Origin: Pseudarthrobacter sulfonivorans
Lineage (GTDB): Bacteria > Actinomycetota > Actinomycetes > Actinomycetales > Micrococcaceae
Assembly (NCBI RefSeq): GCF_024391045.1
Contig: NZ_JANFCZ010000024.1
Span: 1-64,000 of the forward strand
Length of the DNA: 64,000 bases
Direction: 5' to 3'
Made by a program: the position numbers and the translations under genes
Notes under the pieces: model-generated
Told to the model about the DNA's origin: nothing
The model's input: only the letters and a program-made list of their open reading frames with translations
Database searches by the model: none
Shown: positions 20,614 to 46,862 of the stretch, piece after piece
Layout of the letters: every line of letters starts with the position of its first letter
Position numbering within the stretch: the stretch's first letter is position 1

Positions 20614-20653
20614 GCGGGCTGGCCCGAATCCGCGGCGCCCCCGGCGCACGCAA

Positions 20654-20690
20654 AAGGGCATGGCCGGCGGTGTCCGCCGGCCATGCCCTT
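20654..20690. terminator. Bidirectional terminator between the hydrolase gene and ppsA
   Basis: A perfect 17-bp stem (20654-20670 with 20674-20690) with a 3-nt loop. The outer ends are aaaa on the left and ctt on the right, so it serves both converging genes. Confidence 0.85.
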
Positions 20691-20702
20691 AGCAGTCTCG
20701 TG

Positions 20703-23108
20703 TCAGTACGCTCCCGCACCAACCCCGGCGCGCTCCGCCCCGCCGGCGAGGCGGAGCCAGGTGTCCACCACGGTGTCCGGGTTCAGGGAGACGGAATCGA
20801 TGCCTTCCCCGACCAGCCACTCGGCAAAGTCCGCGTGGTCGCTGGGGCCCTGGCCGCAGATGCCCACGTACTTGCCGCGCTCCTTGCAGGCCTTGATGGC
20901 CATGCTGAGGAGCTTCTTGACGGCAGGATCGCGCTCGTCGAAGCCGGCCGAGATAATGGCCGAATCCCGGTCCAGGCCCAGGGACAGCTGGGTCATGTCG
21001 TTGGAGCCGATGGAGAACCCGTCGAAGTATTCCAGGAAGTCGTCGGCGAGGAGGGCGTTGGAGGGGATCTCGCACATCATGATGACTTCGAGGCCGTTCT
21101 CGCCGCGCTTCAGGCCATTCTCGGCCAGCAGGTCGATGACGCCCCGGGCCTCGTCCAGCGTGCGGACGAACGGGATCATCAGCTTGACGTTCGTCAGGCC
21201 CATCTCATTGCGGACGAAGGACAGGGCCTCGCACTCGAGGTCGAAGCAGTCCCGGAAGGACGGGTCCAGGTACCTGGAGGCGCCGCGGAAGCCGAGCATC
21301 GGGTTTTCCTCGTGCGGCTCGTAGGCCGGCCCACCGATGAGGTTGGCGTATTCGTTCGACTTGAAGTCGGACATGCGCACAATCACCGGATGCGGGGCGA
21401 ACGCGGCGGCGATGGTGGCCACGCCTTCGGCCAGGCGCTTGATGTAGTACTCGCGCGGGCTGCTGTACGCGGCGATGCGTTCGCGGATTTCCGCGGCCAC
21501 ATCCGCCGGCTGGTCCTCCAGGTTCAGCAGGGCCTTGGGGTGGATGCCGATCTGACGGTTGATGATGAATTCGAGCCGGGCCAGCCCCACACCGTGGTTG
21601 GGCAGCTGCGCGAAAGTGAACGCCTGCTCCGGGGTACCCACGTTCATCATGACCTTGACCGGGGCCTCGGGCAGCTGGGCGACCTCGGTTTCCTCGACCG
21701 TGAAGTCCAGGAGACCTTCGTAGATCAGGCCGGTCTCGCCGTCGGCGCACGTGACGGTCACGTCGAGGCCGTCGGTGAGCGCGTGGGTAGCGTCGCCGGT
21801 GCCGACGACGGCGGGAATCCCCAGTTCGCGGGCGATAATGGCCGCGTGGCACGTGCGGCCGCCGCGGTTGGTGACGATGGCGGAGGCGCGCTTCATGATC
21901 GGTTCCCAGTCAGGATCGGTCATGTCAGCGACCAGGACGTCGCCCGTCTTGAACGCCGCCATCTGGTCGATTGAGGTCAGGATCCGGACGCTGCCGGCAC
22001 CGATGCGCTGGCCGATCGCGCGGCCTTCGGCGAGTACGCGGCTGGTCCCGTTGAGGCGGAAGCGGCTCAGGTTTCCCGCGGCGCGGCGGGACTGCACGGT
22101 TTCCGGGCGGGCCTGCAGGATGTACAGGCCGCCGTCGATCCCGTCCTTGCCCCACTCGATGTCCATGGGACGGCCGTAGTGGTTTTCGATGGCAACGGCA
22201 TGCCGGGCGAGCTGCTCGACGTCGTCGTCCGTGAGGCTGAAGCGGTTCCGCAGCGAGGCCTCGACCGGCACGAAGTCGATGGTGCGGCCGATCTCCCGGC
22301 TGTTCGTGTAGGTCATCTGGAGGGCCTTCTCGCCCAGTCCGCGCTTGAGGATCGCGGGACGGCCGGCCTGCAGCGCGGGCTTGTACACGTAGAACTCGTC
22401 GGGGTTCACGGCGCCCTGCACCACGGCCTCACCGAGGCCGTAGGAGGACGTGACGAACACGGCGTCCTGGAACCCGGATTCGGTGTCCATGGTGAACATG
22501 ACGCCGGAAGCTCCGACGTCGGAGCGCACCATCCGCTGGACGCCGGCGGAGAGTGCCACGTCGGCGTGCTCGAACTTGTGGTGCACGCGGTAGGCGATGG
22601 CGCGGTCGTTGTAGAGGGACGCGAAGACGTCCTTGATGGCGAGGAGGATGTTCTCGATGCCGCGGACGTTCAGGAAGGTTTCCTGCTGTCCGGCGAAGGA
22701 AGCGTCCGGCAGGTCTTCCGCGGTGGCGCTGGAGCGGACGGCCCAGGAGAGGTCCTCGGAGCCGCCGTGCTTGTCCACCAGCTGCTGGTAGGAGTCGCGG
22801 ATCTGCTTTTCGAAGTCCGGCAGGAAGGGGGTCTCGCGCATGAGCGTCCGGATTTCCTGGCCGGCCGCAGCGAGGGCCGTCACGTCATCGGTGTCCAGGC
22901 CGAGCATCCGGTCCGCGATCTTCTGGTCCAGTCCGGAGTCTGCGAGGAAGCTTCGGTAGGCGTCAGCGGTGGTAGCGAATCCGTCCGGGACCTGGACGCC
23001 GGCGGAGGTGAGGTTCTGCACCATCTCGCCGAGGGAGGCGTTTTTTCCGCCTACCCGGTCCAGGTCTTTGAGGCCGAGTTCTGAGAACCACAGGATGTCT
23101 GTAGTCAT
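20703..23108 (-). CDS. ppsA: Phosphoenolpyruvate synthase
   Basis: This 801-residue enzyme makes PEP from pyruvate with ATP giving AMP and phosphate, for gluconeogenesis. Start ATG 23108 is preceded by AAGGAGC; an upstream in-frame codon at 23159 is not needed. All three domains are present: N-terminal ATP-grasp ([10 protein letters not shown] and [20 protein letters not shown]), the swivelling phosphohistidine domain ([19 protein letters not shown], His 421 as in E. coli PpsA) and the C-terminal PEP/pyruvate TIM barrel ([19 protein letters not shown] and GICGQGPSD). ppsR follows upstream on the same strand. Confidence 0.95.
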
Positions 23109-23260
23109 GGGTGCTGCTCCTTTGCAGATGATGGCATGCGGTGGTGCCGCCCCGGTCACGGCTATGGCCGGTCAGTGGGCGCGAATCCTGTCTACAGTGA
23201 CAGGTCCGGGGCCTTCTTTCCAACATGATGTCCGCCACACTCGGTTTGTGAAAATTTTCC

Positions 23261-24079
23261 CTAATGCTTGAGGTTCATCCGCTGCAGGATGGTGGCGGCC
23301 ATTTCCTCCACGGACACCGAGGCCGAGTTCAGGTACGGAATCCGGTGCGAGAGGTACAACTGCTCGGCACTGCGCAGCTCGAATCCACACTGGCGCAGCG
23401 ACGCGTAGGACGAGCCGCGGCGCCGTTCGGTCCGGATCTGGCTGAGCCGCAGCGGGTTGGAGGAAAGGCCGAAACACTTCTCAACAAAAGGCCGGAGCGG
23501 CTTGGGCAGCCCCTCCCGCTGGAAGTCCTCGTCCACCAGCGGGAAGTTCGCGGCAAAGATGCCATGCTGCAGTGCCAGGTACATGGTGGTGGGCGTTTTG
23601 CCGCAACGGGACGGAGCCACCAGGATGACCTGCGCCTTTTCCAGCGCGCGCAGGCTTTGGCCGTCGTCGTGTTCCATGGCGTATTCGACGGCGGCCATCC
23701 GCGACTGATAACGCTCGGCATTGCCCAGTCCGTGGGCACGGCCGGGTACGGCACTGGCCGGGGAGCCGAGCGCCTGCTCCAGCTGCCCCACATGCGTTCC
23801 GATGAGATCGACCACGATCCCCTGGCAGGTAGCGAGGGTCTGGCGGATGTCGCCGCTGACGGCGGTGGAAAAGACGATGGGCCGCGGGCCGGTGGCGGCC
23901 AGCCTGTCGATGGTGCCGACCACAGACTTGGCCTGATCCACCGTGGTAATGAAAGGAACGGTGATGCGGTCAAAGTTGTTGGCGGGAAACTGCGTCAACA
24001 GGGTGTTACCGAGCGTTTCGGCGGTGATGCCGGTGCTGTCCGAAAGGAAGTAGACAGGGCGGAGAACGTCGTTGGTCAT
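23261..24079 (-). CDS. ppsR: PEP synthase regulatory protein (kinase/pyrophosphorylase)
   Basis: About 272 residues from ATG 24079 (GTG 24097 is an alternative). It belongs to the DUF299 family of bifunctional proteins that inactivate PEP synthase by ADP-dependent phosphorylation and reactivate it by phosphate-dependent removal. The N-terminal YFLSDSTGITAETLGNTLL and the P-loop-like APSRCGKTPTTMYLALQHG are diagnostic. It lies just upstream of ppsA, its expected target, 152 bp apart and on the same strand. Confidence 0.92.
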   Translation of the reverse strand: MTNDVLRPVYFLSDSTGITAETLGNTLLTQFPANNFDRITVPFITTVDQAKSVVGTIDRLAATGPRPIVFSTAVSGDIRQTLATCQGIVVDLIGTHVGQLEQALGSPASAVPGRAHGLGNAERYQSRMAAVEYAMEHDDGQSLRALEKAQVILVAPSRCGKTPTTMYLALQHGIFAANFPLVDEDFQREGLPKPLRPFVEKCFGLSSNPLRLSQIRTERRRGSSYASLRQCGFELRSAEQLYLSHRIPYLNSASVSVEEMAATILQRMNLKH

Positions 24080-24097
24080 GAACGAATTCTGCCCCAC

Positions 24098-24127
24098 GGG
24101 CGCCCCGATTCAGGTATCGGGGCGCCC
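24098..24127 (-). terminator. Terminator at the end of the cre-type operon
   Basis: A perfect 12-bp stem (24098-24109 with 24116-24127) lies 5 bp after the stop of the aldehyde dehydrogenase gene and just before ppsR. Confidence 0.65.
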
Positions 24128-24131
24128 CGCG

Positions 24132-25649
24132 TTACGGCTTCCGGTGGATCGACTTGTAGCTCAGGTACGCGTTCAGGCCTTCGATCCCGTATTCGGTCCC
24201 GAGCCCTGAATCGTGCCGTCCGCCGAACGGTGCGGCGTGGTTGGAGGCGAAGAAGTTCAGGCCAACGGACCCCGTGTCCATGCGGTCCGCGACGGCGAGC
24301 GCAGCGTTCTCATCAGCGCCGAACACCAGGCCGCCCAGGCCGAACTCGGTGTTGTTCGCGAGGGCCACGGCCTCCTCAACGCTTCCGCCGGCGTCGTTGT
24401 ACTTCAGGATGGTGATCACCGGCCCGAAAATCTCCTCGCGGGAGATCCGCATGTCCGGGGTGACATCGGCAAAGACAGTGGGCTCCACAAAGAACCCGTC
24501 CTCCAGGCCGCCGGACAGCGACGCGGCCCGGCCCCCGGTCGTGGCCCGGGCACCCTCGGCCAGCCCCGACTCCACATACTCCAGCACGGTCCGGTACTGC
24601 GACTCCGTGGCACACGGGCCGAACACCGTATCCGGCTCCAGCGGATCGCCTTGCTTGCCGGCGGCGATGGTGGCGGTGACCATGTCCACCACCTCGTCGT
24701 ACCGGCTGGCGGGGGCGAGGATGCGGGTGGAGATGTAGCAGGTCTGCCCGGTGTTGCGCATGGAAGATTTGATGAGAACCGCGGACATGGCGTCCAGGTC
24801 GGCGTCGGGCAGGACGATGGCGCTGGACTTTCCGCCCAGCTCCAGCGTCACGGGACGCAGCAGCTCACCGCACGCCGCGGCGATTTTCCGGCCCACCGGC
24901 GTCGACCCCGTGAACGCCACCTTGTCCACGCCGGGGTGCTTCACCAGCACATCCCCCAGCCGGCCGGAACCCGTCACGAGGTTCACCACGCCGGCCGGGA
25001 CCCCTGCCGCGGCCACGGCGTCGATGATCACCCGGATGGAGAGCGGCGTGGGCGAGGCCGGCTTGATCACCACGGTGCAGCCGGCCAGCAGCGCCGGCGC
25101 CAGCTTGATGATCACCAGGTTGATGGGGAAGTTCCACGGTGCGATCAGCGCGCACACCCCCAGCGGATCACGCCGGACCACGGACTCGCCGCCGCCCCGC
25201 GGGAACGGGCGGACGTCCTCCCGTTCCAAGTACTCGGCCAGGGTGGCGAAGTAGCGGAAGATGCCGGCCGCGTTGGCTGCCGCACCCGCGGATTCGGCCA
25301 CGGGTGAGCCGTTTTCGCGTGAGTTGGTGAGGGACAGCTCCTCGGCCCGCTTCTCCACCTCGTCGGCAATACGGAGCAGGTAAGCGGCGCGCTCGGACGG
25401 CGTCAGCCGGGGCCACTCCCCCTGAAACGCGCGCCGGGCGGAGCCGACGGCGGCGTCCACGTCCTCCGGGGTGCCGTCCGGTACCGAGCCCCAGACTTCG
25501 CCCGTGGCGGGGTCAGTCACCGGGTTCCGGCCGGTGGCACGCGATGGCTGCCAGGCGCCGTCGACGAAGATGGTGTCCACATGCGTGTGCGGCAGGGCGA
25601 GGCCACTACGCGTGGAAAGCGCGGGGGCGTCATGCGTTGCGGAGGTCAT
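24132..25649 (-). CDS. Aldehyde dehydrogenase of the cre-type operon
   Basis: This 505-residue NAD(P)+-dependent aldehyde dehydrogenase has the expected motifs: APWNFPINLVIIKLAPAL, FTGSTPVGRKIA for the cofactor, ELGGKSSAIVLPDAD with the general base Glu, and catalytic Cys in NTGQTCYIS. Its start overlaps the HD gene stop by 4 bp (ATGA). By analogy with the C. glutamicum cre cluster it should oxidise 4-hydroxybenzaldehyde (or its phosphate) to the acid. Position is that of creC, but published letter assignments for the two dehydrogenases are not recalled with certainty, so no symbol is given. Confidence 0.88.
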   Translation of the reverse strand: MTSATHDAPALSTRSGLALPHTHVDTIFVDGAWQPSRATGRNPVTDPATGEVWGSVPDGTPEDVDAAVGSARRAFQGEWPRLTPSERAAYLLRIADEVEKRAEELSLTNSRENGSPVAESAGAAANAAGIFRYFATLAEYLEREDVRPFPRGGGESVVRRDPLGVCALIAPWNFPINLVIIKLAPALLAGCTVVIKPASPTPLSIRVIIDAVAAAGVPAGVVNLVTGSGRLGDVLVKHPGVDKVAFTGSTPVGRKIAAACGELLRPVTLELGGKSSAIVLPDADLDAMSAVLIKSSMRNTGQTCYISTRILAPASRYDEVVDMVTATIAAGKQGDPLEPDTVFGPCATESQYRTVLEYVESGLAEGARATTGGRAASLSGGLEDGFFVEPTVFADVTPDMRISREEIFGPVITILKYNDAGGSVEEAVALANNTEFGLGGLVFGADENAALAVADRMDTGSVGLNFFASNHAAPFGGRHDSGLGTEYGIEGLNAYLSYKSIHRKP

Positions 25650-26434
25650 CGGATCACCGCCGTCTTCAGCAGGGCGTTGGAGCGGTCAAGGTCCGCGGTG
25701 GCCATCTCCACGGCGGCCTCGGTAATGAGCTCGGGCACGATTTCGACCGCGAGCCGGTCCGTATAGGTGGCGGGATCCATCTTGAACCATGACGATGCCA
25801 GCGCAATGCCGGCCTGGTCGAACCGCCACAGCCTGTCGGCGTCGCGCATGAGGGCATCCTCCAGCGAGCGGGCCACCGGCCGGGTGTCGTGGCCCTCGAT
25901 GATCTCGCAGATTCGCTCCACGAAGTCGGCCGAATAGCCGAGCCCGGGCAGCACCCTGCGCGCCACGTTGCAGCCCTGGAGTTCATGCTCATAGCGGATG
26001 TTCGCCTTGCGCCAGTCCCCCGTGAATCCCTCCGAGATGATGCGGGATTCGTCCACGTGGGCCCAGCCGGTGTCGTGCAGCAGGGTGGCTACCCGCACCA
26101 GGTCCGCGTCGGCGTCCGGATAGGCCCGGCACAGCCGTTCGGCGTAGGCCAGCGAAATGGGCAGGTGGATGTCGTTCCCCCGGGTCCGGGTTTCGTGGAC
26201 CACGGCCTGCCACAAGGAGTCGAGATCCTCGAGCGCGGCGGGCGTGGTGGCGATCGGTGCGGTGTCCACCGGGCCGATCGCCGGGACCGGGCGGAGGCTG
26301 TACTCGGCGGCGAACGCCTCGGCCAGCGCGTCGGCGGCATCAGGACCGGCGGCAGCTTCGGTACCGGCGGCAGGACCTGTGCCGGCGGCGGTGCCGACGT
26401 CTGCCGGGGCAACCGGAGTCTGGTGGGTGCTCAT
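25646..26434 (-). CDS. creD: HD-domain phosphohydrolase, CreD-like
   Basis: This 262-residue protein has a low-complexity Ala/Gly/Pro N-terminus (residues 1-45) and then an HD domain: H90, the HD pair H120-D121 in ATLLHDTGWAHVDE, EGHDTRP (H182-D183) and RDADRLWRF (D198/D200). HD proteins are metal-dependent phosphohydrolases. In the cre pathway a phosphohydrolase (CreD) removes the phosphate from the oxidised aryl phosphate to give free 4-hydroxybenzoate-type products, and this gene is at that position between ferredoxin reductase and aldehyde dehydrogenase. A diverged paralogue is encoded at 47706-48416. Confidence 0.75.
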   Translation of the reverse strand: MSTHQTPVAPADVGTAAGTGPAAGTEAAAGPDAADALAEAFAAEYSLRPVPAIGPVDTAPIATTPAALEDLDSLWQAVVHETRTRGNDIHLPISLAYAERLCRAYPDADADLVRVATLLHDTGWAHVDESRIISEGFTGDWRKANIRYEHELQGCNVARRVLPGLGYSADFVERICEIIEGHDTRPVARSLEDALMRDADRLWRFDQAGIALASSWFKMDPATYTDRLAVEIVPELITEAAVEMATADLDRSNALLKTAVIR

Positions 26435-26473
26435 TATGCTCCTTCGGGTGGGCCAGCCTGCTGCCTGGTGCAG

Positions 26474-27781
26474 CTAGCTGTCCGTGGTGATGGTCTTGAG
26501 TTGCGTGGCGGTGTCCGCCGCGGCGTCGGCGGGGATGTTCTGCCCCTTGGCCAGGGCGTTCCTGACGGCCATGAAGTCCAGCGGTGCGTTGACGCAGTCG
26601 GCGGCGATGATCCGGCCCTGCCGGTAGTAGAGGACGCTGAACTTGCCGCGTTCCTCGTCGCGCCTGATCACGGTCTGGTCGAATCCGTTGCAGAGGCCTG
26701 CGATCTGCAGTTTGAGGTCGGCCTGGTTGGACCAGAACCACGGGATGCCGGCGTATTCCTCGCGCCGGCCGGTCAGCGAGTAGGCGGCCACCTTGGCATG
26801 TTCGATGGCGTTGTTGACGCTTTCGAGCCGGATCCGTTCCCCCGGTTCGGAGCCAGGGACGGGGTTGGGCATGTTGGCCACATCGCCCACCGCCACCGTG
26901 GTCCCGTCCGAGGCCAGCGCAAACCGGTCCACCACCACGCCGTTGTCCACAGCCAGTCCGAGCTGCTCCGCCAGCTGCGTGTTGGGGATGACGCCGATGC
27001 CCACCAGGACAATCTGTGCCGGCAGCACCGTCCCGTCCTGAAGCTCGACGGCGGCAACATGGGTTCCGCCGTCGGCATCCCCTGCGGTGAAGCGCGCCGC
27101 ACTCGTATTCAGCCGGATGTCCAGACCGCGGGAGCGGTGCGCCTGCAGGAAATACTCGGCGGTCTCCTCCCCCACAGCCCTACCCACCAGCCGCGGACCG
27201 AACTCCAGCACCGTGACGTTTTTGCCCATTTTCTGCAGGCTCGATGCGGCTTCCAGGCCGATGAACCCGCCGCCGATCACCACCACGTCGGTGGCATCGC
27301 CCACGCGGGCCTTGAGCGCCAGGGCGTCGTCGGCGTTGCGCAGGTACAGCACACCGTCCAGATCGCCGCCGTCGATCTCCAGCTTCCGGGCTCGGGCACC
27401 CACAGTCAGGGCCAACCGCTTGAACGGGAACTCCCGGCCCGAGGACGCGTGGGCCACCCCGGAGCCGTCAGCCTCTTTGTCGATCCGGACGATGTATTCG
27501 CCCTTGACCAGTTCCACGTTGTGCTCGGCCCAGTACTCGTTGGAGCGGAAGATCAGGGATTCGCTCTCCACCGTGCCCTGCAGGAACTCCTTGGACAGCG
27601 CGGGCCGCTGGTACGGGCGGTGGTCCTCGTCCCCCAGCAGGGTGATGTGCTCGTCAAAGCCCAGCGCCCGCAGCGACACCGCCAGCTGCACCCCTGACTG
27701 GCTGGCGCCAATGATCAGCAGACCGGTGCGGGTGGGCGCCGTGGGGGCGCCGGTGGCTTCTTCCACTACTTGCGTACCCAT
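26474..27781 (-). CDS. creE: FAD-dependent ferredoxin reductase, CreE-like
   Basis: This 435-residue NAD(P)H:ferredoxin reductase of the putidaredoxin-reductase type has an N-terminal FAD site (LLIIGASQSGVQLAVSLRAL), a central NAD site (VVVIGGGFIGLEAASSLQKM), VAVGDVANMPN binding the flavin, and a C-terminal reductase domain with WFWSNQADLKLQIAG. The first FAD motif reads GASQSG rather than GAGxAG, a mild variation. The gene begins 2 bp after the ferredoxin stop, and together they should deliver electrons to the CreJ-like P450. Confidence 0.88.
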   Translation of the reverse strand: MGTQVVEEATGAPTAPTRTGLLIIGASQSGVQLAVSLRALGFDEHITLLGDEDHRPYQRPALSKEFLQGTVESESLIFRSNEYWAEHNVELVKGEYIVRIDKEADGSGVAHASSGREFPFKRLALTVGARARKLEIDGGDLDGVLYLRNADDALALKARVGDATDVVVIGGGFIGLEAASSLQKMGKNVTVLEFGPRLVGRAVGEETAEYFLQAHRSRGLDIRLNTSAARFTAGDADGGTHVAAVELQDGTVLPAQIVLVGIGVIPNTQLAEQLGLAVDNGVVVDRFALASDGTTVAVGDVANMPNPVPGSEPGERIRLESVNNAIEHAKVAAYSLTGRREEYAGIPWFWSNQADLKLQIAGLCNGFDQTVIRRDEERGKFSVLYYRQGRIIAADCVNAPLDFMAVRNALAKGQNIPADAAADTATQLKTITTDS

Positions 27782-27783
27782 CG

Positions 27784-28104
27784 CTACACCTGCGTTTCCG
27801 GGGTGGTGACGAACAGTTCCAGCTCATCGGTCAGGCGCAGCTGGCACGAGAGCCGTGAGTTATCTTCGCGGTCCACGGCGGTGCCGTACAGCATCTCGTC
27901 CTCCATGTCCTCCATCGGCGGGAGCTGCGAGGCGCAGTCTTCCCGGACAAAAACATGGCAGGTGGCGCAGGACAGCGAGCCGCCGCACTCAGCCACGATG
28001 CCGGGAACGCCGTTGCGCACCGCGGTTTCCATGACCGAGTCGCCCACGTTGCCCTGGACGTCGCGGACGGCGCCTTCGGCGTCGGTGAAGTGAACCGTTG
28101 GCAT
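27784..28104 (-). CDS. creF: [2Fe-2S] ferredoxin, adrenodoxin type, CreF-like
   Basis: From ATG 28104, preceded by a near-perfect AAGGAGG, the protein has 106 residues. The cluster ligands are C40, C46, C49 and C87 (CGGSLSCATC ... LSCQL), the spacing of P450-partner ferredoxins such as putidaredoxin and terpredoxin. It sits between the SDR and ferredoxin reductase genes of the operon. A longer open frame continues upstream through the SDR region, but the ribosome site fixes the start. Confidence 0.92.
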   Translation of the reverse strand: MPTVHFTDAEGAVRDVQGNVGDSVMETAVRNGVPGIVAECGGSLSCATCHVFVREDCASQLPPMEDMEDEMLYGTAVDREDNSRLSCQLRLTDELELFVTTPETQV

Positions 28105-28166
28105 TGGTCCTCCTTTGGATAGAACTTTGGATGAAAAGTTGCTTGGCGGGTGGCTAAGCAGGCTTG

Positions 28167-28955
28167 TCAGATGAACTGCCGGCCGCCGTCCACCACCATG
28201 GTCTGGCCGGTGTAGTAGGAACTGTCCGGGCCGGCGAGGAACAGGGCAGCGCCCACGATGTCCTCGGGCTGGCTGGCCCGCTTGATAGCGCCGCGGTCCA
28301 CGCCGTAGTTCTCGGCGTTTTCCATGAGCCCGTAGCTGGCCTCGGTGAGGGTGAAGCCGGGGGCGATCGCGTTGACCGTGATCCCCCGCCGGCCCAGTTC
28401 CTTGGCCATGACCCGGGTCATGGCCACCACGCCGCCCTTGGAGGCGACGTAGTGCATCCACTGCTCCGAGCCGCTGAAAATCGTGGCACTGGAGAGGTTG
28501 ATAACGCGCCCGCCCTCGGCGAGGTACGGACTGGCGGCCCGGGTGACCAGCCAGGGCCCCTTGAGGTTCACGTTCATGACCAGGTCCCATTCGGCCGGGT
28601 CAATGTCCTCGAAGGGGGTCCGGGTCACCGTCGCATACACGGCGGCGTTGTTGATGACGACGTCGATGCGTCCGTCGCCGAACTCGGCGCACCTTTTCGC
28701 GAGGTCCTCGGTGGAGTCCACGCTGGTGACGTCCGCTGCGAAAGCCGCGGCCTCGGCTCCGGCCTCCCGCACGAGCTTGGCGGTCTGCTCCGCACCCTCA
28801 AGGTTGATGTCCGCCACCGCCACCCGGTATCCCCGGCCGGCAAAGCCGAGCGCGAACGCCCTACCCAGCCCGCCGGCGGCACCGGTGATCAGGACGGTCC
28901 GCCCTTCCATGCCATCCTCAGTATATTCCCGATCAGGCATATTAAGGTCAGACAT
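28167..28955 (-). CDS. Short-chain dehydrogenase/reductase of the cre-type operon
   Basis: This 262-residue classical SDR has the cofactor motif TGAAGGLGRAFALGF near residue 25, NNAAVY, catalytic Ser in INLSSATIFSGS, YxxxK as YVASK, and PGFTLTEA. It overlaps the upstream gene by 8 bp. In the C. glutamicum cre pathway an alcohol dehydrogenase oxidises the hydroxybenzyl alcohol intermediate to the aldehyde; this is the natural candidate. It occupies the creG position. SDRs of this type could also act on other secondary or benzylic alcohols. Confidence 0.85.
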   Translation of the reverse strand: MSDLNMPDREYTEDGMEGRTVLITGAAGGLGRAFALGFAGRGYRVAVADINLEGAEQTAKLVREAGAEAAAFAADVTSVDSTEDLAKRCAEFGDGRIDVVINNAAVYATVTRTPFEDIDPAEWDLVMNVNLKGPWLVTRAASPYLAEGGRVINLSSATIFSGSEQWMHYVASKGGVVAMTRVMAKELGRRGITVNAIAPGFTLTEASYGLMENAENYGVDRGAIKRASQPEDIVGAALFLAGPDSSYYTGQTMVVDGGRQFI

Positions 28956-30816
28956 GGCTGTGGCTGTGGGCGCCGGGACCGGCGACCACGAGGTCGTCGT
29001 CGGCGTCGAGGATCTGGACGGTGCCCTTGGTCCCGTCCACCCGCAGCCTTTGGCCGGTTTTGATGGTGGTGGACCCGGAACCCGTTCCCGTCACGGCGGG
29101 TAGCCCGTACTCGCGGCACACGATCGCGGCGTGGCTCATCATGCCGCCGATGTCCGTGACCGTGGCCTTGATCTTCCCGAAGATGGGGCCCCAGGACGGT
29201 GCGGTGACGGTGGCCACCAGGATCTCGCCCTGCTGGACCTCGGAGAGCTGGTCCGCGTCGGTGACCACGCGGGCCAGGCCTTCCACCACGCCGGGAGATG
29301 CGGCCATGCCGCGCAGTCCGCCGCCTTCCACTTCCTCGCCGGCACCGAGCCACTGCTGGACCTGCTCGGTGGTGATCCCCCAGAGCATCCGGGTGAAGGG
29401 TTCGGTGATGATTTCCGGCGGCGTGTTCAGCGCCGGGGCCGGACGGGCGGTCTTGAGCGCGTCCACGATGCCGCGGCGGCGTTCGATCTCCTCCGGCCAG
29501 TAGTCCGGGCCGATCGGCTTGGCGCCGACGCCCCAACCGGTGACCAGGTCAAAGAGCGCGTCGCGGACCTCGTTGCGGCCCAGGTAGAGCAGGTCATCCG
29601 GTTCGGTCCAGAAGCCTTCGGCGTGCATCATGCGGGAGAGTTCGCGGATCTTGCGCCAGAAGACGCCCATGGTCCAGTGCTCGATGTAGAAGTTGTGGTT
29701 CTCCACGTACGGGTACGCGGTGGCGGCGAGGCCGCGCTTGGCGTCGAAGAGCGCCTGGTTTTCGCCTTCGAGCAGATCACGGTATTCCTCGATGATCCGG
29801 TCGCGTTCGGCGATCAGGGCCTCGACGGGGCGCATGATTTCCTGGCCCTCGTCCACGCGGCGGATGTAGTCCGCGATGTAGCCCAGCGGGATTTCCTGGT
29901 TCACGTTCCAGTACTTGTCGTGCCCGTAGAAGCCGTTGCCCACGGTGAAGTTGAACCACGGGTCCTTGGCACCCTCGTACTGGGCAAGCCACCGGTCCCC
30001 GCCCGGAGCTGCCGCGATCGCACCCAAGGTGGCCTCGACGTCGTCCGTATTCCCGAAATGAGGCTGCAGGCCCAGCTCCACAGCCAGCTTCGCGAGCTGC
30101 TTGAGCTCGTCATCGGGGCGGAACAGCTCCATGTCCACGCCCTGCACCATCGTGGCAATCGACTGGTCCGGGATGTTCGGGAAGACCTGCTTGCAGAAGT
30201 TGAAGAAGTCCAGGTACGCGATGTAACCCAGGTTCAGGAACTCGAAGTGGTACTGCCAGTTCTGGTATGCGAGGGCGATCAGCCGGTCGTAGCTGTCCAG
30301 GAGCTTCTCCGAACCGTCCTTGCCCTTGCCGGAGGTAATGTCCTCCATCGGGACAATGTCCGGGAGCTTCGGGAAGGAAATGGTTTCCATCTCCGCGATG
30401 GTGCCCTTAACCTTGACGTGCCAGTCCTTGAGCAACTGCTCCCAGTTCTGGAAATAGTAGCCAACGCGCTCCTCAAACAGCGGAACGCGGGCGGCGATCT
30501 GGTCCTCCGGCACCGGAATCGGCGACATATAGAGGTAGCCCAAATGGATCCGGAACTCGATCCCGTTGGCGTTGGGGATCATCAGGTGCCGGGCGTTGTA
30601 CTGGCCCAGACACTTGACCGCGAATTCACCACCGATCGTCTCGAACGGCTTGAACACAGTAGGCCAGTGCTGGCTGTCGCAGAACCAGAACTTGGCGTCC
30701 TCCTGTTCCTTGAGCTTGTCCTGGAACACCAGGTAATAGGGATAGATCTTTTCCCAGCCCTCGGCACCGGCGGGGACCGCGAGCTCGGACGGTTTAGGGA
30801 AGGACTTCAGGGACAT
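28948..30816 (-). CDS. creH: PEP-synthase-like phosphohistidine subunit, CreH-like (aryl phosphate synthase)
   Basis: This 622-residue (about 70 kDa) protein ends with the swivelling phosphohistidine domain of PEP synthases: GGMMSHAAIVCREYGLPAV with the active His at about 562. The first ~480 residues are rich in aromatic residues (FLNLGYIAYLDFFNFCKQVF, VENHNFYIEHWTMGVFWRKI) and resemble the large subunit of phenylphosphate synthase rather than the PEP barrel. The partner ATP-grasp domain is encoded just upstream. The two together are expected to phosphorylate the phenolic OH of 4-cresol or similar phenols (ATP to AMP + Pi), the first step of the cre pathway. Confidence 0.85.
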   Translation of the reverse strand: MSLKSFPKPSELAVPAGAEGWEKIYPYYLVFQDKLKEQEDAKFWFCDSQHWPTVFKPFETIGGEFAVKCLGQYNARHLMIPNANGIEFRIHLGYLYMSPIPVPEDQIAARVPLFEERVGYYFQNWEQLLKDWHVKVKGTIAEMETISFPKLPDIVPMEDITSGKGKDGSEKLLDSYDRLIALAYQNWQYHFEFLNLGYIAYLDFFNFCKQVFPNIPDQSIATMVQGVDMELFRPDDELKQLAKLAVELGLQPHFGNTDDVEATLGAIAAAPGGDRWLAQYEGAKDPWFNFTVGNGFYGHDKYWNVNQEIPLGYIADYIRRVDEGQEIMRPVEALIAERDRIIEEYRDLLEGENQALFDAKRGLAATAYPYVENHNFYIEHWTMGVFWRKIRELSRMMHAEGFWTEPDDLLYLGRNEVRDALFDLVTGWGVGAKPIGPDYWPEEIERRRGIVDALKTARPAPALNTPPEIITEPFTRMLWGITTEQVQQWLGAGEEVEGGGLRGMAASPGVVEGLARVVTDADQLSEVQQGEILVATVTAPSWGPIFGKIKATVTDIGGMMSHAAIVCREYGLPAVTGTGSGSTTIKTGQRLRVDGTKGTVQILDADDDLVVAGPGAHSHSHV

Positions 30817-30882
30817 GGCGGTCCTTTCAGAAGGGCTCAGCGGTGAGCCTTGATGGGGTGAAGCCTTGCTGGTTTGTTGCTG

Positions 30883-31962
30883 TTAGGCGGACGGTTTGAG
30901 GGTGCCGGCGCTGAAGCCGCTGAAGAAGCCACCGGAGACAACCGGCTGCGGCGCGGTCTGGGGAGCCGGCTTGGACGAATGCACGGTCTCGGGCCGCGAC
31001 TGCAGCAGGAGCAGGTTCTCGCCGTCCGGGAGGTCGGCGTCGAGGGCCCATTCGATGTCCTGCGGGCATTTGTAGTGCTTTTCGGCGCGCTTGGCCATCT
31101 GCGCGACGGCGGTGAGTTCCGCATCGGTGAGGCTGCGGCGGCCGCGGCGTTCGGCGTCGACCTCGCGTTCCACGAGGCGCTTGGCACCCGTGTCCGGAAC
31201 GAGTTCCGCGTGCTTGTCACCGAGGTGTTCGTTCACGACGGCGAGCGTCACCTTATCGAGCACGATGTTGTCCGGGGTGACCTGGCCGGACACCACCATT
31301 TCGCCCACGCCGTAGGAGGAATCGATGGTGATCTTGGAGCGGTCACCGTTGGTGGGATCCATGGTGATGGCGACGCCGGAAACCTTCGAATTGACCATCT
31401 TCTGGACCACGACGGCCATGGAGAGCCCCTCGTTGGGGATGTTGTTCTTCAGCCGGTAAATGATGGCCCGGGACGTGAAGAGCGAGGCCCAGCACTGGCG
31501 GATGTGCTCGGTGACGGCTTTGACGCCCTCAAGCCAGAGGTAGGTGTCCTGCTGGCCGGCGAAGGAAGCATCGGGCAGGTCCTCGGCGGTGGCGCTGGAG
31601 CGGACGGCCACGGGCACCGAGGCGTCGAAGCGGCTCATCAGCGACTCGTAGGCATTGATGGTGAGCTCACGCATTTTTTCCGGTACGGGCCTGGAGCAGA
31701 TGTCCTCGCGGATGGTGGCGGACACCTTGTCCACCTGGGCCATGTCCTCGGAATCGAGACCGGCAAGGAGCCTGTGGGTCTCCTCGGTGATGCCTGCCTC
31801 GTCCATAAACGCGTCGAACTGTGCCGTGGTGACCACAAAGCCGGGCGGGACGGGCATGCCGGCGGACGTCATGGTGACCAGGGACGCGCCCTTCCCGCCG
31901 AGGTTTTCGAGCTTTGGCTCAATGCCGCCGTCGAAGAACTGGATGTATTCGTTGCTTTGCAT
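30883..31962 (-). CDS. creI: PEP-synthase-like ATP-grasp subunit, CreI-like (aryl phosphate synthase)
   Basis: From ATG 31962, 5 bp after the P450 stop and with GGAAGG upstream, the protein has 359 residues (about 40 kDa). It is only the ATP-binding part of PEP synthase: [54 protein letters not shown] and DIEWALD ... LLLLQSRPET. It ends where PEP synthase continues into the His domain. This split matches phenylphosphate synthase (40-kDa plus 70-kDa subunits) and CreHI. It should charge the His of the larger subunit with phosphate from ATP. Confidence 0.86.
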   Translation of the reverse strand: MQSNEYIQFFDGGIEPKLENLGGKGASLVTMTSAGMPVPPGFVVTTAQFDAFMDEAGITEETHRLLAGLDSEDMAQVDKVSATIREDICSRPVPEKMRELTINAYESLMSRFDASVPVAVRSSATAEDLPDASFAGQQDTYLWLEGVKAVTEHIRQCWASLFTSRAIIYRLKNNIPNEGLSMAVVVQKMVNSKVSGVAITMDPTNGDRSKITIDSSYGVGEMVVSGQVTPDNIVLDKVTLAVVNEHLGDKHAELVPDTGAKRLVEREVDAERRGRRSLTDAELTAVAQMAKRAEKHYKCPQDIEWALDADLPDGENLLLLQSRPETVHSSKPAPQTAPQPVVSGGFFSGFSAGTLKPSA

Positions 31963-31967
31963 GGTGG

Positions 31968-33245
31968 TTATGCCTTCCAACTGACAGGAACGGTCTCGGG
32001 AACGCGGAAGGAGATGTTTTCCCGGAACGGAATGGCCTCCGGGTCTTCCAACTGCAGCTCCGGGGCGAGCCGGGCCACTTCCTCGAGCGCGATTTTGGCC
32101 TGGAGCTTGGCGAGCATGTTGCCCAGGCAGTAGTGGATGCCAAACCCGAACGAGAGGTGCTCGCGGGCGTTCGGGCGGGAGATATCGAAGTCCTCCCCGG
32201 CTACGAACTTGCTTTCGTCCCGGTTAGCCGAGCCCATCAGGAGCAGCATCTGGGAGCCTTCCTCGATGCGGACGCCGCCCACTTCGGTGTCCTTCAGGGC
32301 CTTCCGGCGCCAGCCGACGATCGAGCCGGCGTAGCGGAGGACCTCGTCGATGGCTGCCGGAATTTTCTTCGGTTCGGCCACCAGCTGCTGCCACTGTTCG
32401 GGGCGTGCCAGCAATTCGCGCAGTGCGTTGGAGATCAGGGTGGTGGTGGTTTCGTGGCCGGCAAAGAGCAGGCTGTAGAGGACCGACGCGATCTCGTGGT
32501 CCGAGATTTCGGCGCCTTCCTGCTGCGCCTTGACGAGGTCGCCGGTGAGGTTGTCGCCGCCCTGTTCGTGGGCCACCCTGACGAGTCGCAGGCATTCCTG
32601 CCAGTACTCCACCAGGTTGTGGGCGTGCGGGATCTGTTCCTCGTCGGTCAGGTCGCCCCAGGTCATGGCAGCGCGGGAATCGGACCAGCGCTTGAAGGTG
32701 TCCACCTGGGAGACGTCTGCACCGATGAGGGTCAGGATGGTGATGGTGGGGACGTCGTAGGCGAGGTCCTTGACGAGGTCGCCGCGGCGTTCCTCACGGG
32801 AGAGCATCTTTTCGAGCAGTTTGACGACGTTTTCGCGGATGAACGGTTCCAGCGCCTTGTAGCGGCGCGGGGTGAAGGCCTTCTGGACCACGGCGCGGAT
32901 GCGGGTGTGCTCCGGCGGGCGCCTTGCGGAAAGGCCTGAGTAGGCAGTGAAGCCGCCGTCCTCCATGATCTTCTTCGCGGCGGCCCCGCGTTCACGAACG
33001 GGCGCCTGGGCATTTTCGCTGGAAAAGGTTTCCCAGTCCTCGAAGACGGCCTTGATGTCGTCGTAGCGGGAGACGACGTAGAGTCCCACGCGCTCATCAA
33101 ACATCACTGGCTGTTCGGCCCGGAGTTCGGCGTAGGCGGTGAAGGGGTCCTTCATCTGGAACGGCTCATAGCCGTGGTGCCCGGCGGGCGCTTCGGCGCC
33201 GTACCCGAAGGGACAGCGGCCGGCCGTTTCTGTCGACGATGACAT
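31968..33245 (-). CDS. creJ: Cytochrome P450, CreJ-like (aryl-phosphate methyl oxidase)
   Basis: From ATG 33245, preceded by AGGAG, the protein has 425 residues. P450 landmarks are the I-helix AGHETTTTLISNAL, the ExxR motif in IDEVLRYAGS and the heme loop LSFGFGIHYCLGNML with axial Cys. It heads an operon with its own ferredoxin and reductase, so it is a class I system. The adjacent aryl-phosphate synthase genes indicate that its substrate is a phosphorylated alkylphenol, as for CreJ, which oxidises the methyl group to alcohol, aldehyde and acid. A candidate IclR box lies 98 bp upstream of the start. Confidence 0.87.
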   Translation of the reverse strand: MSSSTETAGRCPFGYGAEAPAGHHGYEPFQMKDPFTAYAELRAEQPVMFDERVGLYVVSRYDDIKAVFEDWETFSSENAQAPVRERGAAAKKIMEDGGFTAYSGLSARRPPEHTRIRAVVQKAFTPRRYKALEPFIRENVVKLLEKMLSREERRGDLVKDLAYDVPTITILTLIGADVSQVDTFKRWSDSRAAMTWGDLTDEEQIPHAHNLVEYWQECLRLVRVAHEQGGDNLTGDLVKAQQEGAEISDHEIASVLYSLLFAGHETTTTLISNALRELLARPEQWQQLVAEPKKIPAAIDEVLRYAGSIVGWRRKALKDTEVGGVRIEEGSQMLLLMGSANRDESKFVAGEDFDISRPNAREHLSFGFGIHYCLGNMLAKLQAKIALEEVARLAPELQLEDPEAIPFRENISFRVPETVPVSWKA

Positions 33246-33342
33246 CTTGACTCCTGGTGACTTGGTTCCGCCCGGCACCGTCAGGGTGCCGGGGGTTCTT
33301 AGTGACCAGTGTGGTCCACATCACCGGCGCGGGATACCCTCA

Positions 33343-33361
33343 CCTTCCACTGGGCGGAAAT
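33343..33361. promoter_or_regulatory. Diverged IclR-type box upstream of the cre-type operon
   Basis: The imperfect inverted repeat TTCC-ACTGGGC-GGAA (33345-33359) matches the 19-bp repeat found at 45262-45280 (reverse complement) at 15 of 19 positions. It sits between the divergent P450 and MFS genes. Confidence 0.5.
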
Positions 33362-33515
33362 GAACTGGTTGCTGACCAGGTGCTGCTCCGGTGCGGCGTA
33401 CGGTATGTTGGCGGCAGATGAAACGCCCAGTCAGGGGCTATTTTGATCTGACGGGGTGGAATCCAATGGGCGCAACGGACGCTCTAAAACCTCCCAAAGG
33501 ATGGAAGAAAGCACG

Positions 33516-34721
33516 ATGACCGCTGCAACCAGAAACGCGTCGGAGCGCTCGGTCAGATTGGGCTTCGCCTTCATCGGTCTTCTGCTCATCGCAATCAACC
33601 TCCGGGTGTCCTTTGTCAGCGTGGGTCCGGTGCTCGAAAACATCAGCAGTGACCTTCAATTGTCCGGCGCCGCTGCAGGGTTCCTCACAGGCCTTCCGCT
33701 CATTGCATTCGCAGTCTTCTCACCCGTGGCGCCCGCCTTCGCTTCCCGCCTTGGCCTGGACCGGGCGCTGTGGCTGTCGCTGCTGTTCCTCGCCGCGGGC
33801 ATCGTGCTTCGCTCCCTGCCGGTGCCCGGCTTCATCTGGGCGGGCACCGCCCTGATCGGCCTGGCCATCGCCTTCCTCAATGTCCTGGTTCCCTCCCTCG
33901 TCAAGCGGGACTTCCCGATGAGGGTCAGCCAGGTCACCGGAAGCTACACCGCCACACAGGCCGCCTTCGCCGCGATCGGGGCGGCCGTCGTCGTCCCCGT
34001 GGCCCAGACTTCCCCGGCAGGATGGCGGCTCGCCCTCGGGATATGGGTGGGACTGGCTCTTATCGCCATGGCGGTGCTTCTTCCGTGGCTGCGCCGGCGC
34101 ACGTCAGGCACTGCGCACGCCGCCAGGCTGGACGTCTCCTACCGGTCGCCCTGGACCTCGGCCCTGGGCTGGCAGGTAACGCTGTTCATGGGACTGCAAT
34201 CGATCGCCTTCTACGTCCTCATGGCCTGGCTGCCCACCATCGAGCAAAGCCGAGGGGTCCCCGCCGCCACTGCAGGCATCCACCTGTCCGTTTTCCTGCT
34301 CATCAGCGTGTTCGCCAGCCTCGCCGCAGGCGGAATCCTCCACCGGGGTTCGGACCAGCGGCTTGTGTCCTTCGCCAGCGGCGCCCTGACGTTCGTAACA
34401 TTCCTCGGGCTGGCACTCGCGCCCGACCTCGTCCTGCTGTGGGTCCTTCTTGGGGCCATAGGCTGCGGAGGCCTCATCGTCATCGCCCTGTCGCTGTTCA
34501 GCCTCCGAACCGTGAATTACCCGCAGGCAGCATCGTTGTCCGGCATGGCCCAATCTGTTGGCTACGCCCTCGCCGCGGCGGGTCCCGTGATGTTCGGCGG
34601 TCTGCGGGACGTCAGCGGAGATTGGACACTTCCGCTTCTCGTCACGGCAGGCCTTATGGCGGTTCTTGCCGTGACAGGCGTTCTTGCCGGGCGTGCCCGC
34701 GTGATCAGCGGCCACGTTTGA
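33516..34721 (+). CDS. MFS transporter, CynX/NimT-like
   Basis: About 401 residues from ATG 33516 (GGAAGAAAG upstream; in-frame codons at 33501 and 33456 lack good ribosome sites). Twelve hydrophobic helices, with NLRVSFVSVGPVLENI and PAFASRLGLDRALW between TM1 and TM2-3, a pattern of the cyanate permease-like MFS group. It is divergent from the P450 operon across 270 bp that contain the IclR-like box, so it may move a pathway substrate or export a toxic phenolic, but the substrate is unknown. Confidence 0.82.
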   Translation: MTAATRNASERSVRLGFAFIGLLLIAINLRVSFVSVGPVLENISSDLQLSGAAAGFLTGLPLIAFAVFSPVAPAFASRLGLDRALWLSLLFLAAGIVLRSLPVPGFIWAGTALIGLAIAFLNVLVPSLVKRDFPMRVSQVTGSYTATQAAFAAIGAAVVVPVAQTSPAGWRLALGIWVGLALIAMAVLLPWLRRRTSGTAHAARLDVSYRSPWTSALGWQVTLFMGLQSIAFYVLMAWLPTIEQSRGVPAATAGIHLSVFLLISVFASLAAGGILHRGSDQRLVSFASGALTFVTFLGLALAPDLVLLWVLLGAIGCGGLIVIALSLFSLRTVNYPQAASLSGMAQSVGYALAAAGPVMFGGLRDVSGDWTLPLLVTAGLMAVLAVTGVLAGRARVISGHV

Positions 34722-34864
34722 CGCATTTAAATTTATGTAGCCTACTTAGTGTTTCGCCGTATCCAGCGACCGGATTCTGAAATATGGTGATAAGCACACC
34801 ACGCGATACCGAGTGGGTCTTAGGCCCGGGCCAGCCCCGGCTAAGCGAAACCAAGGAGAGTCCC

Positions 34865-35011
34865 ATGTTGCTTTGGATAGCCATCATCATCGCAGTTCTC
34901 TGGCTTTTGGGCCTGCTCGCCAATATCGGCGGCGGCCTCATTCACATCCTTCTGGTGATAGCGGTGGTTGTCTTGATCTTCCATTTCATTCAAGGCAGGT
35001 CCCGCGCCTGA
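34865..35011 (+). CDS. lmo0937-family small membrane protein
   Basis: This 48-residue protein starts at ATG 34865 behind AAGGAGAG. It reads as two short hydrophobic helices (LLWIAIIIAVLWLLGLLANI and IHILLVIAVVVLIFHF) joined at Gly-Gly-Gly and ends in the basic tail QGRSRA. This is the typical pattern of the lmo0937 / DUF5670 family, which is common in Arthrobacter, often stress-induced and of unknown function. An A/T-rich stretch (34727-34745) 120 bp upstream may hold its promoter. Confidence 0.8.
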   Translation: MLLWIAIIIAVLWLLGLLANIGGGLIHILLVIAVVVLIFHFIQGRSRA

Positions 35012-35116
35012 CTGGGGCACTGTATTCCGGTTGCGGGCACCGCACCCACGCGCAGCCCGCAACCGGGCCCCAGCGGAACCTCCCGCCCCGCCCGGGATTC
35101 CCCGTAGCGTAGTCCC

Positions 35117-36007: not shown

Positions 36008-36182
36008 CGGCGCCAGAGAGCACCATCCCCAGGGGGTCCCTGCCAGTACCCGTCACGGCAGGGTCTCCCTCAGAACTGCCGGATGCGTTTTGATGGAACA
36101 GTGCCCCCGGTGCCACCCACCCACGGCCAAGAAGTTCAGCAGCATCCATCCCAACGCTGTCTGCCTATCAATAGGAGAAATA

Positions 36183-37223: not shown

Positions 37224-37237
37224 AGCATCACAACGAA

Positions 37238-37277
37238 GAGAGCCTGCACCCATCCGCGGGGTGCAGGCTCTCTTTTT
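37238..37277 (+). terminator. Rho-independent terminator after the alcohol dehydrogenase gene
   Basis: A perfect 14-bp stem (37238-37251 with 37259-37272) followed by TTTTT. It also lies at the 3' end of the converging P450 gene. Confidence 0.9.
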
Positions 37278-46857: not shown

Positions 46858-46862
46858 CGCTG

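Follow-up and report, generated by a model that had tools for sequence, protein, structure and literature searches.

The closest described system is the cre operon of Corynebacterium glutamicum, for which a gene table covering cg0637-cg0645 lists creC as a benzaldehyde dehydrogenase, creD as a phosphohydrolase, creE/F/J as a P450 system, creG as a 4-hydroxybenzyl alcohol dehydrogenase and creH/I as kinase subunits (PMC7764795). The cre inducer was called unknown in that 2020 paper (PMC7764795). For the kinase, the motif T/SXXGGXXXH, also present in HpeHI, comes from a second paper (PMC12167813). The pathway itself is already known, and the useful part of the present analysis is the comparison across loci, which yielded a concrete candidate operator and candidate regulator for cre, revealed a second HD hydrolase and brought out kinase genes that are otherwise masked by generic PEP-enzyme names.

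Gene content and order of the operon

We analysed a window of 64,000 nucleotides from Pseudarthrobacter sulfonivorans (contig NZ_JANFCZ010000024.1, positions 1 to 64,000). Eight ORFs, all open in the ORF check of the window, lie on the minus strand at 24132-33245; percentages for all but the P450 are identities to two Corynebacterium loci, L065 and L136:

31968-33245, minus strand, creJ-like cytochrome P450 (PF00067; heme motif FGFGIHYCLG; 76% identity to the PDB 5xjn chain)
30883-31962, minus strand, creI-like ATP-grasp subunit of the predicted aryl kinase (PF01326, PPDK_N; 74%)
28948-30816, minus strand, creH-like subunit with substrate-binding and swivel domain (PF00391, PEP-utilizers mobile domain; NF006150, 1286.6 bits; TDIGGMMSH; 78%)
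28167-28955, minus strand, creG-like short-chain alcohol dehydrogenase, SDR (PF00106, adh_short/PF13561; YxxxK; 76-77%)
27784-28104, minus strand, creF-like [2Fe-2S] ferredoxin (PF00111, Fer2; four-Cys motif; 73-76%)
26474-27781, minus strand, creE-like ferredoxin reductase (PF07992, Pyr_redox_2, and PF14759, Reductase_C; 69-71%)
25646-26434, minus strand, creD-like HD phosphohydrolase (PF01966; 64-65%)
24132-25649, minus strand, creC-like aldehyde dehydrogenase (PF00171, Aldedh; GQTC motif; 71-73%)

The ORFs to which Pfam domains were assigned extend slightly further for three of the genes (P450, 31968-33278; PPDK_N, 30883-31980; Fer2, 27784-28107). Codon-position GC was of coding type for the seven longer ORFs, the 107-aa ferredoxin having no row of its own in that analysis. 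The outer limits of 24132 and 33245 proposed in the initial annotation held, with the creJ ATG at 33245 conserved in the upstream alignment of the loci, and so did the short spacings and overlaps it described: with likely ATG starts, the gaps were 5 nt (J-I), 66 (I-H), -8 (H-G), 62 (G-F), 2 (F-E), 39 (E-D) and -4 (D-C). No sigma-70-type promoter was found near creJ in a scan of 20500-34000; its single promoter-like hit, at 23252-23225, did not exceed what shuffled sequence gives.

The P450 matched the PDB 5xjn chain at 708 bits and 76% identity, whereas the next different P450 scored 242 bits, a difference of 466; this chain is taken to be C. glutamicum CreJ, and it is the one direct comparison with that species, C. 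glutamicum being absent from the loci returned. All eight proteins were 64-78% identical to those of L065 and L136, where the gene order was the same. A locus scan seeded with the P450 alone found 103 relatives, from which 80 named loci were kept, and the full eight-gene order stood on one strand in 73 of these 80 actinobacterial loci, which excludes a chance grouping of the genes. Among the seven partial loci, six were on stretches reaching a contig end, and the last (L144) had an H match stopping after 58 residues. The one-to-one correspondence to creJ-I-H-G-F-E-D-C that had been claimed from the sequence is therefore upheld by these identities, by the order and by the C. glutamicum gene table (PMC7764795). 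Judged by sequence, the operon at 24132-33245 is a member of the known creJIHGFEDC pathway and, taken alone, is ordinary for its group.

Pfam placed the two kinase domains on separate proteins, PPDK_N on CreI and PEP-utilizers on CreH, and His562 of CreH, in TDIGGMMSH, is the predicted catalytic histidine, and this sequence fits T/SXXGGXXXH. As had been anticipated, generic annotation hides this kinase, the names being 'PEP-utilizing enzyme' and 'PEP/pyruvate-binding' on plasmids and 'hypothetical protein' in NCBIfam. In the CreH tree, the window sequence belonged to a 73-member node (support 1.0) that included 68 of 76 cre loci and left the own-genome paralogue (L002, 46%) outside, while the node with all 76 cre loci was weakly supported (0.32) against homologues of 51-55% identity. 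For CreD, the metal-binding residues (H, HD, H, HD and D) were identical in 79 of 79 aligned CreD sequences, and a sequence search at E up to 0.001 returned no solved relatives.

The displaced regulator, its putative operator and HD2

In 69 of the 80 loci, an IclR-family regulator gene of the same orientation as creJ lay no more than 2 kb upstream of it. No regulator gene adjoins creJ in the window, nor in L074, L092, L099, L104, L109, L118 and L144, and given these seven loci adjacency was not taken as defining for a cre operon. The elements found upstream of creJ in the window were:

33345-33359, minus strand, putative CreR operator TTCCGCCCAGTGGAA preceding the creJ ATG (0 mismatches to TTCCRCYSAGTGGAA)
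33360-46862, no strand assigned, intervening DNA from the creJ operator to creR (MFS, XRE, Zn-ADH, CYP199-like P450, reductase, second IclR, SDR, ALDH, MBL-fold protein, MFS)
46863-47657, minus strand, displaced regulator of the IclR family, orthologous to the one adjoining creJ in other loci (creR; PF01614 and PF09339; 96% to L092)
47706-48416 (ORF to 48464), minus strand, HD2, second HD phosphohydrolase, upstream of creR (PF01966; model pLDDT 93.4)
48459-48473, minus strand, putative second CreR operator before HD2-creR (1 mismatch, box scan)

The name creR for this IclR regulator follows the initial annotation; the papers searched for the word gave no instance of it. The regulator fell in a 70-member clade of the IclR tree (support 0.992), of which 68 members start no more than 3 kb upstream of creJ and the remaining two are those of L092 and the window. 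By this placement, the IclR at 46863-47657 is the predicted orthologue of the creJ-adjacent regulator, with a shared putative operator before creJ. The 13.5 kb that separate it from creJ carry a CYP199-type P450 module; homology to relatives stops at 33359 (L101, L074, L097, L146) and resumes at 46862-46876 in L101, L097 and L146, whose stretches include creR. The initial annotation was thus right that creR is not adjacent, the orthologue being 13.5 kb off, but its conclusion that regulation differs is not supported, because that orthologue is in the window and the putative operator before creJ is intact.

Across the 4.07 Mb genome, the palindrome TTCCRCYSAGTGGAA was matched exactly at 33345-33359 and nowhere else. 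It was present before creJ with at most one mismatch in 57 of the 80 loci, with two to three mismatches in 11 and with four or more in 12, whereas control stretches inside genes gave 0/80 and at best four mismatches; one locus in this count (L117) had just ~150 bases of upstream sequence. The pattern had been derived from 23 upstream sequences, of which 21 belong to the 80 loci; held-out support is 36/58. Ten of the 12 loci with four or more mismatches showed an IclR2-type match nearby, and L079 was an artefact without upstream sequence. The seven loci named above, which have long upstream sequence but lack an IclR2-type gene within 2 kb, kept the box at 0-1 mismatch in six cases, L144 being the exception. 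At up to three mismatches, the box occurred 15 times in the window against 9.8 expected, and 8 of 100 shuffles reached 15, a count not clearly above chance.

HD2 was present in 43 of the 80 loci and formed a clade separate from CreD. The box preceded it at 0-2 mismatches in 21 of 41 evaluable loci, a count made without a control and with one artefact row (L135) left out. Matches of the HD2 model to generic HD hydrolases were weak (best E 1e-3, TM 0.56), and because of this no substrate was inferred from the fold. We tentatively suggest, as a reading less likely than not, that HD2 might be an unrecognised ninth cre enzyme, a second aryl-phosphate phosphohydrolase that accompanies the IclR regulator and is controlled through its operator. 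It would serve either to remove a phosphorylated intermediate that is toxic or a dead end, or to switch off the inducing signal; together with CreR and the box, HD2 would then form a conserved actinobacterial regulon, working in trans even apart from the catabolic genes. A literature search of openly accessible papers found none on a CreR box or HD2.

Proposed pathway and rival explanations

The best explanation, which we consider very probable, is a cre-type operon that would convert 4-cresol to 4-hydroxybenzoate via phosphorylated intermediates and be controlled in trans by the displaced IclR. Specifically, CreI would bind ATP and phosphorylate the swivel His562 of CreH, which would hand the phosphate to the phenolic OH of 4-cresol. 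The methyl group of the aryl phosphate would be oxidised by the P450 CreJ, with electrons supplied via the reductase CreE and the ferredoxin CreF; the HD hydrolase CreD would remove the phosphate, and the SDR CreG and aldehyde dehydrogenase CreC would take the alcohol through the aldehyde to the acid. The resulting 4-hydroxybenzoate would enter the protocatechuate route, predicted to be encoded elsewhere in the genome. Most likely, the IclR encoded at 46863-47657 controls cre through the palindrome at 33345-33359, and it probably governs HD2-creR, the unit to which it belongs, as well.

Genome context favours 4-cresol as the probable substrate. 4-hydroxybenzoate 3-monooxygenase (PobA) shares a stretch with cre in 10/10 tested members of an 11-locus family, and the own genome was found to contain a PobA-like gene, at 416 bits, and a beta subunit of protocatechuate dioxygenase scoring above its cut-off, on contig C75; the own PobA-like match and the ten beside cre are all below the TIGR02360 cut-off of 538.7. 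Additionally, two Rhodococcus plasmids, one of them typed as conjugative, carry a complete cre cluster beside a toluene monooxygenase; the one tested, from pRB98, resembles ToMO (628 bits) and T4MO (611 bits) to a similar degree. A tblastn search of loci L065-L154 found no pRB98-type monooxygenase, so the pairing rests on the two plasmids, whose cre copies have the operator box at 2 mismatches. Both PobA near cre and the toluene monooxygenase beside it fit a conversion of 4-cresol to 4-hydroxybenzoate, and the plasmids suggest a route from toluene through cresol to 4-hydroxybenzoate. A cre-type operon whose main natural substrate is another para-alkylphenol, such as 4-ethylphenol or 4-isopropylphenol, would agree with a P450 that is 76% rather than 100% identical to the 5xjn chain and with the initial annotation, which had proposed alkylphenols generally; we regard it as quite unlikely, since this same context fits a methyl group ending as 4-hydroxybenzoate and since, with the alcohol and aldehyde dehydrogenases, every step from benzylic methyl to acid is accounted for. 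A different kinase type, hydroxyphenylethanone HpeHI or phenylphosphate synthase, in a cluster for a carboxylation route is extremely improbable. CreH, HpeH and PpsA are indeed homologous, at ~45% pairwise identity (PMC12167813), but a P450, a ferredoxin and a reductase are present, none of the eight genes encodes a carboxylase, including the biotin-dependent kind of hpe clusters (the window has its nearest biotin carboxylase gene at 48954-50729), CreH is 78% identical to Corynebacterium sequences versus 45-47% to paralogues (family sample) and at most 55% to other homologues (phylum sample), and a separate second kinase cluster lies on contig C25 of the own genome.

Improbable, though less so than either of these, is that the displaced IclR has lost control and that an XRE/MmyB-like protein (35117-36007), the second IclR (39667-40503) or an IhtR-like regulator elsewhere governs the operon. 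The two genes in the window are nearer to creJ, and the second IclR shares the family of the displaced one and has putative boxes (39619, 41526) that resemble the CreR box; moreover, in C. glutamicum creF RNA rose when a different IclR gene, cg3388/ihtR, was deleted (PMC7764795), so CreR may not be the sole cre regulator. Against this, the exact box is retained before creJ and a near copy before HD2-creR, the second IclR is in a different clade with its boxes beside genes of its own module, and the XRE gene was matched in just 5/80 named loci. Two genes downstream of creC, neither counted as a cre gene, raise a further question of operon membership:

23261-24097, minus strand, ppsR, a lineage-limited neighbour (PF03618; NF049928 just under cut-off)
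20703-23159, minus strand, PEP synthase gene after ppsR (TIGR01418, 1173 bits)

That these are functional parts of the operon, with PpsR for example controlling CreH, would be in keeping with the position of ppsR, which starts 34 nt beyond creC in the same orientation, and with the intervening sequence, in which no terminator-like site was found. We judge it very unlikely: ppsR was linked to cre in 2 of the 12 same-genus ppsR regions retrieved and in 2 of the 80 named loci, it is unlinked in two genomes that carry cre elsewhere (G638 and G602), and CreH has GGMMSH where PEP synthase has GGRTCH and so lacks the regulatory Thr. PpsR and PEP synthase were ruled out as cre parts on this linkage and the missing Thr.

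Comparison with known systems

Rifampin phosphotransferase (RPH) resembles the kinase in its ATP-grasp and swivel domains (PDB 5fbs), but it is a single chain rather than two subunits, and the sequence match of the H subunit is limited to residues 499-604. Phenylphosphate synthase PpsAB (Thauera, Aromatoleum) shares the two-component aryl kinase architecture and differs in serving an anaerobic phenol pathway and in the ~45% identity reported among CreH, HpeH and PpsA (PMC12167813). HpeHI of the Rhodococcus rhodochrous GD02 hpe cluster is likewise a two-component dikinase with homologous subunits and T/SXXGGXXXH; that cluster, however, works with a biotin carboxylase and a phosphatase of NagD type, neither of which is among the eight genes of the window. 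Within the intervening module, the P450 at 37291-38499 is nearest to CYP199 structures (up to 388 bits), its partner being a separate reductase that carries a Fer2 domain at its C-terminus. In Corynebacterium, the IclR gene adjoins creJ in 4/4 named cre loci (L065, L069, L070, L136), whereas it lies ~13.5 kb away in the window, where HD2 stands before creR; HD2 was not found in those four stretches. The cre operon of C. glutamicum (creC-creJ, cg0637-cg0645) remains the nearest likeness, agreeing in all eight functions and in their order as given in its gene table (PMC7764795), with the P450 at 76% identity to the 5xjn chain.

The cre operon and its relatives

The 64-kb window is part of contig C17; the genome comprises 75 contigs and 4.07 Mb. 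The initial annotation had matched eight genes one-to-one with creJ-I-H-G-F-E-D-C, the 4-cresol operon of Corynebacterium glutamicum, and this identification as a cre-type operon held on gene order, motifs and sequence identity:

33245 down to 24132, minus strand: cre operon, comprising P450, PPDK_N ATP-grasp subunit, PEP-utilizers subunit, SDR, Fer2 ferredoxin, ferredoxin reductase, HD protein and aldehyde dehydrogenase

Between neighbouring genes, the extremes were an overlap of 8 nt and a gap of 66 nt. Intact motifs were present in the P450 CreJ (heme motif FGFGIHYCLG), the H subunit (TDIGGMMSH), the aldehyde dehydrogenase (GQTC) and the SDR (YVASK), while the ferredoxin had its four Cys and CreD its HD residues. 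The P450 was 76% identical over 405 residues (708 bits) to the chain of 5xjn, which, like 5gwe and 7ccf, we take to be C. glutamicum CreJ; the next different P450 scored 242 bits. Identities to two Corynebacterium loci (L065/L136) were 64-78%, specifically J 74/73, I 74/74, H 78/78, G 77/76, F 76/73, E 69/71, D 64/65 and C 71/73. A 106-sequence CreH tree placed the window in a 73-member node (support 1.0) holding 68 of the 76 included cre loci. Support for the node uniting all 76, relative to homologues of 51-55% identity, was 0.32; a paralogue from the same genome (L002) fell outside. The creC to creJ functions in a published C. glutamicum table agreed with those of the window genes (PMC7764795). 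That the operon is a new example of an already known pathway is well supported; the literature drawn on comprised PMC12167813, PMC9618137, PMC7764795, PMC8796525, PMC5070772 and PMC13101518.

A contig profile search using a two-row P450 alignment returned 103 relatives, from which 80 named loci were kept, C. glutamicum itself being absent from these 80. The complete J-I-H-G-F-E-D-C order on one strand was found in 73; six of the seven partial loci were on stretches ending at a contig end. In the seventh, a Streptomyces locus (L144, 12346-12516), the creH match ended after 58 residues, reflecting either a gene break or an assembly gap. Three variant cre-like clusters (L140, L141 and L143) had P450s about 60% identical to that of the window; in L140 and L141 the HD protein at the CreD position was 43-47% identical, and L143 stopped short of that position. 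Counting the window's own genome each time, CreH matches of at least 68% occurred in 50 of the 295 family-sample genomes (a 51st reached 47% at best), CreJ matches with E up to 1e-130 in 4 of 394 genomes at class level, and CreH-like proteins with E up to 1e-60 in 23 of 396 genomes of the phylum sample, where the top non-self CreH identity was 55%.

A displaced creR and the putative operator

The initial annotation, noting no adjacent creR-like gene, had concluded that regulation differs from that in C. glutamicum. We replace this conclusion, because the window holds both a creR orthologue and an exact copy of a putative CreR operator, the box, before creJ:

33345-33359: putative box before creJ, 0 mismatches, the genome's sole exact copy
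36090-46787: second IclR-linked catabolic module, with CYP199-like P450 (37291-38499), Fer2-containing reductase (38537-39628), IclR (39667-40503), SDR, ALDH, MBL-fold protein and MFS
46863-47657: creR, IclR regulator gene
48459-48473: putative box before HD2-creR (HD2, a second HD phosphohydrolase gene), 1 mismatch, one of four one-mismatch copies in the genome

In 69 of the 80 loci, an IclR gene shared the strand of creJ and lay no more than 2 kb upstream of it. Three were too short for this test, and eight were negative (L074, L092, L099, L104, L109, L118, L144 and L140), with the IclR of L092 4.5 kb off creJ and that adjacent in L140, at about 47%, barely under the cut. Of the two IclR genes in the window, that at 46863-47657 belonged to a 70-member clade (support 0.992) in which 68 genes start less than 3 kb upstream of creJ, the remaining two being that of the window and its sister from L092; the one at 39667-40503 fell in a separate clade with those of L074 and L099.

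The box, the palindrome TTCCRCYSAGTGGAA, was derived from an alignment of 23 upstream regions. Of the 80 loci, 57 had it in the 400 bp preceding creJ with no more than one mismatch, as did 36 of the 58 evaluable loci outside that alignment. In control stretches inside genes the best match never had fewer than four mismatches (0/80). Exact boxes were present in the Corynebacterium loci L065, L069, L070 and L136; against this, 11 loci had two or three mismatches and 12 had at least four, one of them (L079) an artefact, and the two Rhodococcus plasmids each had two. Among seven loci with long upstream sequence and no gene like the creJ-adjacent regulator within 2 kb, six (L074, L092, L099, L104, L109 and L118) kept a box with 0-1 mismatch, and L144 lacked it. 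Across the genome, 29 forward and 28 reverse matches with at most two mismatches compared with 15 in each direction when the pattern was reversed; within the window, 15 matches with at most three mismatches against 9.8 expected were not clearly above chance.

In the displacement comparison (DISPLACEMENT), DNA homology with four relatives (L101, L074, L097 and L146) ended at the box edge (33359) and restarted at the creR end (46862-46876) in L101, L097 and L146, where creR was within the stretch. Only about 40 bp separate the creR end from the box in L146, and L101 has about 1.6 kb at that position that does not match the window's DNA. The intervening 13.5 kb encodes:

MFS, XRE/MmyB-type regulator, Zn-ADH, CYP199-like P450, reductase with C-terminal Fer2, IclR, SDR, ALDH, MBL-fold protein, MFS

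Parts of this DNA recur in relatives: L092 has the 33401-37221 portion, L099 lacks the XRE and ADH genes, L074 lacks the first MFS gene, and the XRE gene was matched in five loci. Palindromes (TTCCGTTGGATGGAA) were seen at 39619 and 41526, inside the second IclR-linked module. We infer, as the simplest reading, that creR acts on the creJ promoter in trans. More than one regulator may act, because deletion of another IclR gene, ihtR (cg3388), raised creF RNA in C. glutamicum (PMC7764795).

End product and plasmid-borne copies

FAD monooxygenases of one family were encoded in the cre stretch of 11 of the 80 loci; all ten tested scored above the NF006091 4-hydroxybenzoate 3-monooxygenase cut-off and below the stricter TIGR02360 cut-off. 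The window's genome has a PobA-like gene (C75:3519-4676; 416 bits, TIGR02360 cut-off 538.7) and a protocatechuate dioxygenase beta subunit above its cut-off (C75:23184-23840), the weaker match adjoining it (C75:22601-23131) presumably being the alpha subunit. This linkage and the C75 genes fit a route from 4-cresol via 4-hydroxybenzoate to protocatechuate. CYP199A4 is a known 4-methoxybenzoate O-demethylase, and O-demethylation of that type would likewise give 4-hydroxybenzoate.

Among 72,556 plasmid records, ten encoded a CreH homologue at E up to 1e-50; the two from Rhodococcus were 75-77% identical. In both, a complete cre cluster and a toluene monooxygenase operon lie side by side (L180, 5062-19803; L181, 967-15311). 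R. ruber Y14 unnamed1, typed conjugative, has the order HD, IclR, P450, two kinase subunits, SDR, ferredoxin, reductase, HD and aldehyde dehydrogenase, followed by the monooxygenase operon, which faces it tail to tail from the other strand. R. oxybenzonivorans pRB98 carries toluene monooxygenase genes, IclR and the eight cre genes on a single strand throughout. Its monooxygenase alpha subunit is about equally close to ToMO (628 bits) and T4MO (611 bits).

HD2 and neighbouring clusters

In the window, the HD2 gene lies upstream of creR. HD2 homologues of at least 45% were found at varying positions in 43 of 80 cre loci, and sat within the operon, between H and G, in L140, L141 and L143; HD2 was not found in four Corynebacterium stretches. 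A midpoint-rooted tree separated 45 HD2 sequences (window counted) from 79 of CreD, with supports of 1.0 and 0.955; metal-binding residues were kept in 79/79 CreD and 44-45/45 HD2. The HD2 AlphaFold model, although confident (pLDDT 93.4), had weak likeness to known HD hydrolases. A box with 0-2 mismatches preceded HD2 in 21 of 41 evaluable loci, a count made without a control. The recurrence of HD2 suggests a role in the cre pathway. Genes for biotin carboxylase, CT_A_B/CT_C_D carboxyltransferase, MFS and LamB/YcsF lie at 48954-54695, a set of 5-oxoprolinase type; the carboxylase genes are also upstream of HD2-creR in L092 and L101.

On the other side, ppsR starts 34 nt past creC and is followed by a PEP synthase gene. 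This linkage was seen in two of the 12 same-genus ppsR regions fetched and in two of the 80 named loci (L092 and L099). PEP synthase has a regulatory Thr that is missing from CreH, and we regard the juxtaposition as lineage-specific.

Finally, contig C25 of the same genome carries a second, two-component aryl-kinase-like cluster (L154, 6333-10671) with a divergent LysR gene, encoding a PYC_OADA-domain protein, a HAD phosphatase, and subunits like H (46%) and I (37%) of the window; its gene content is akin to part of hpe.
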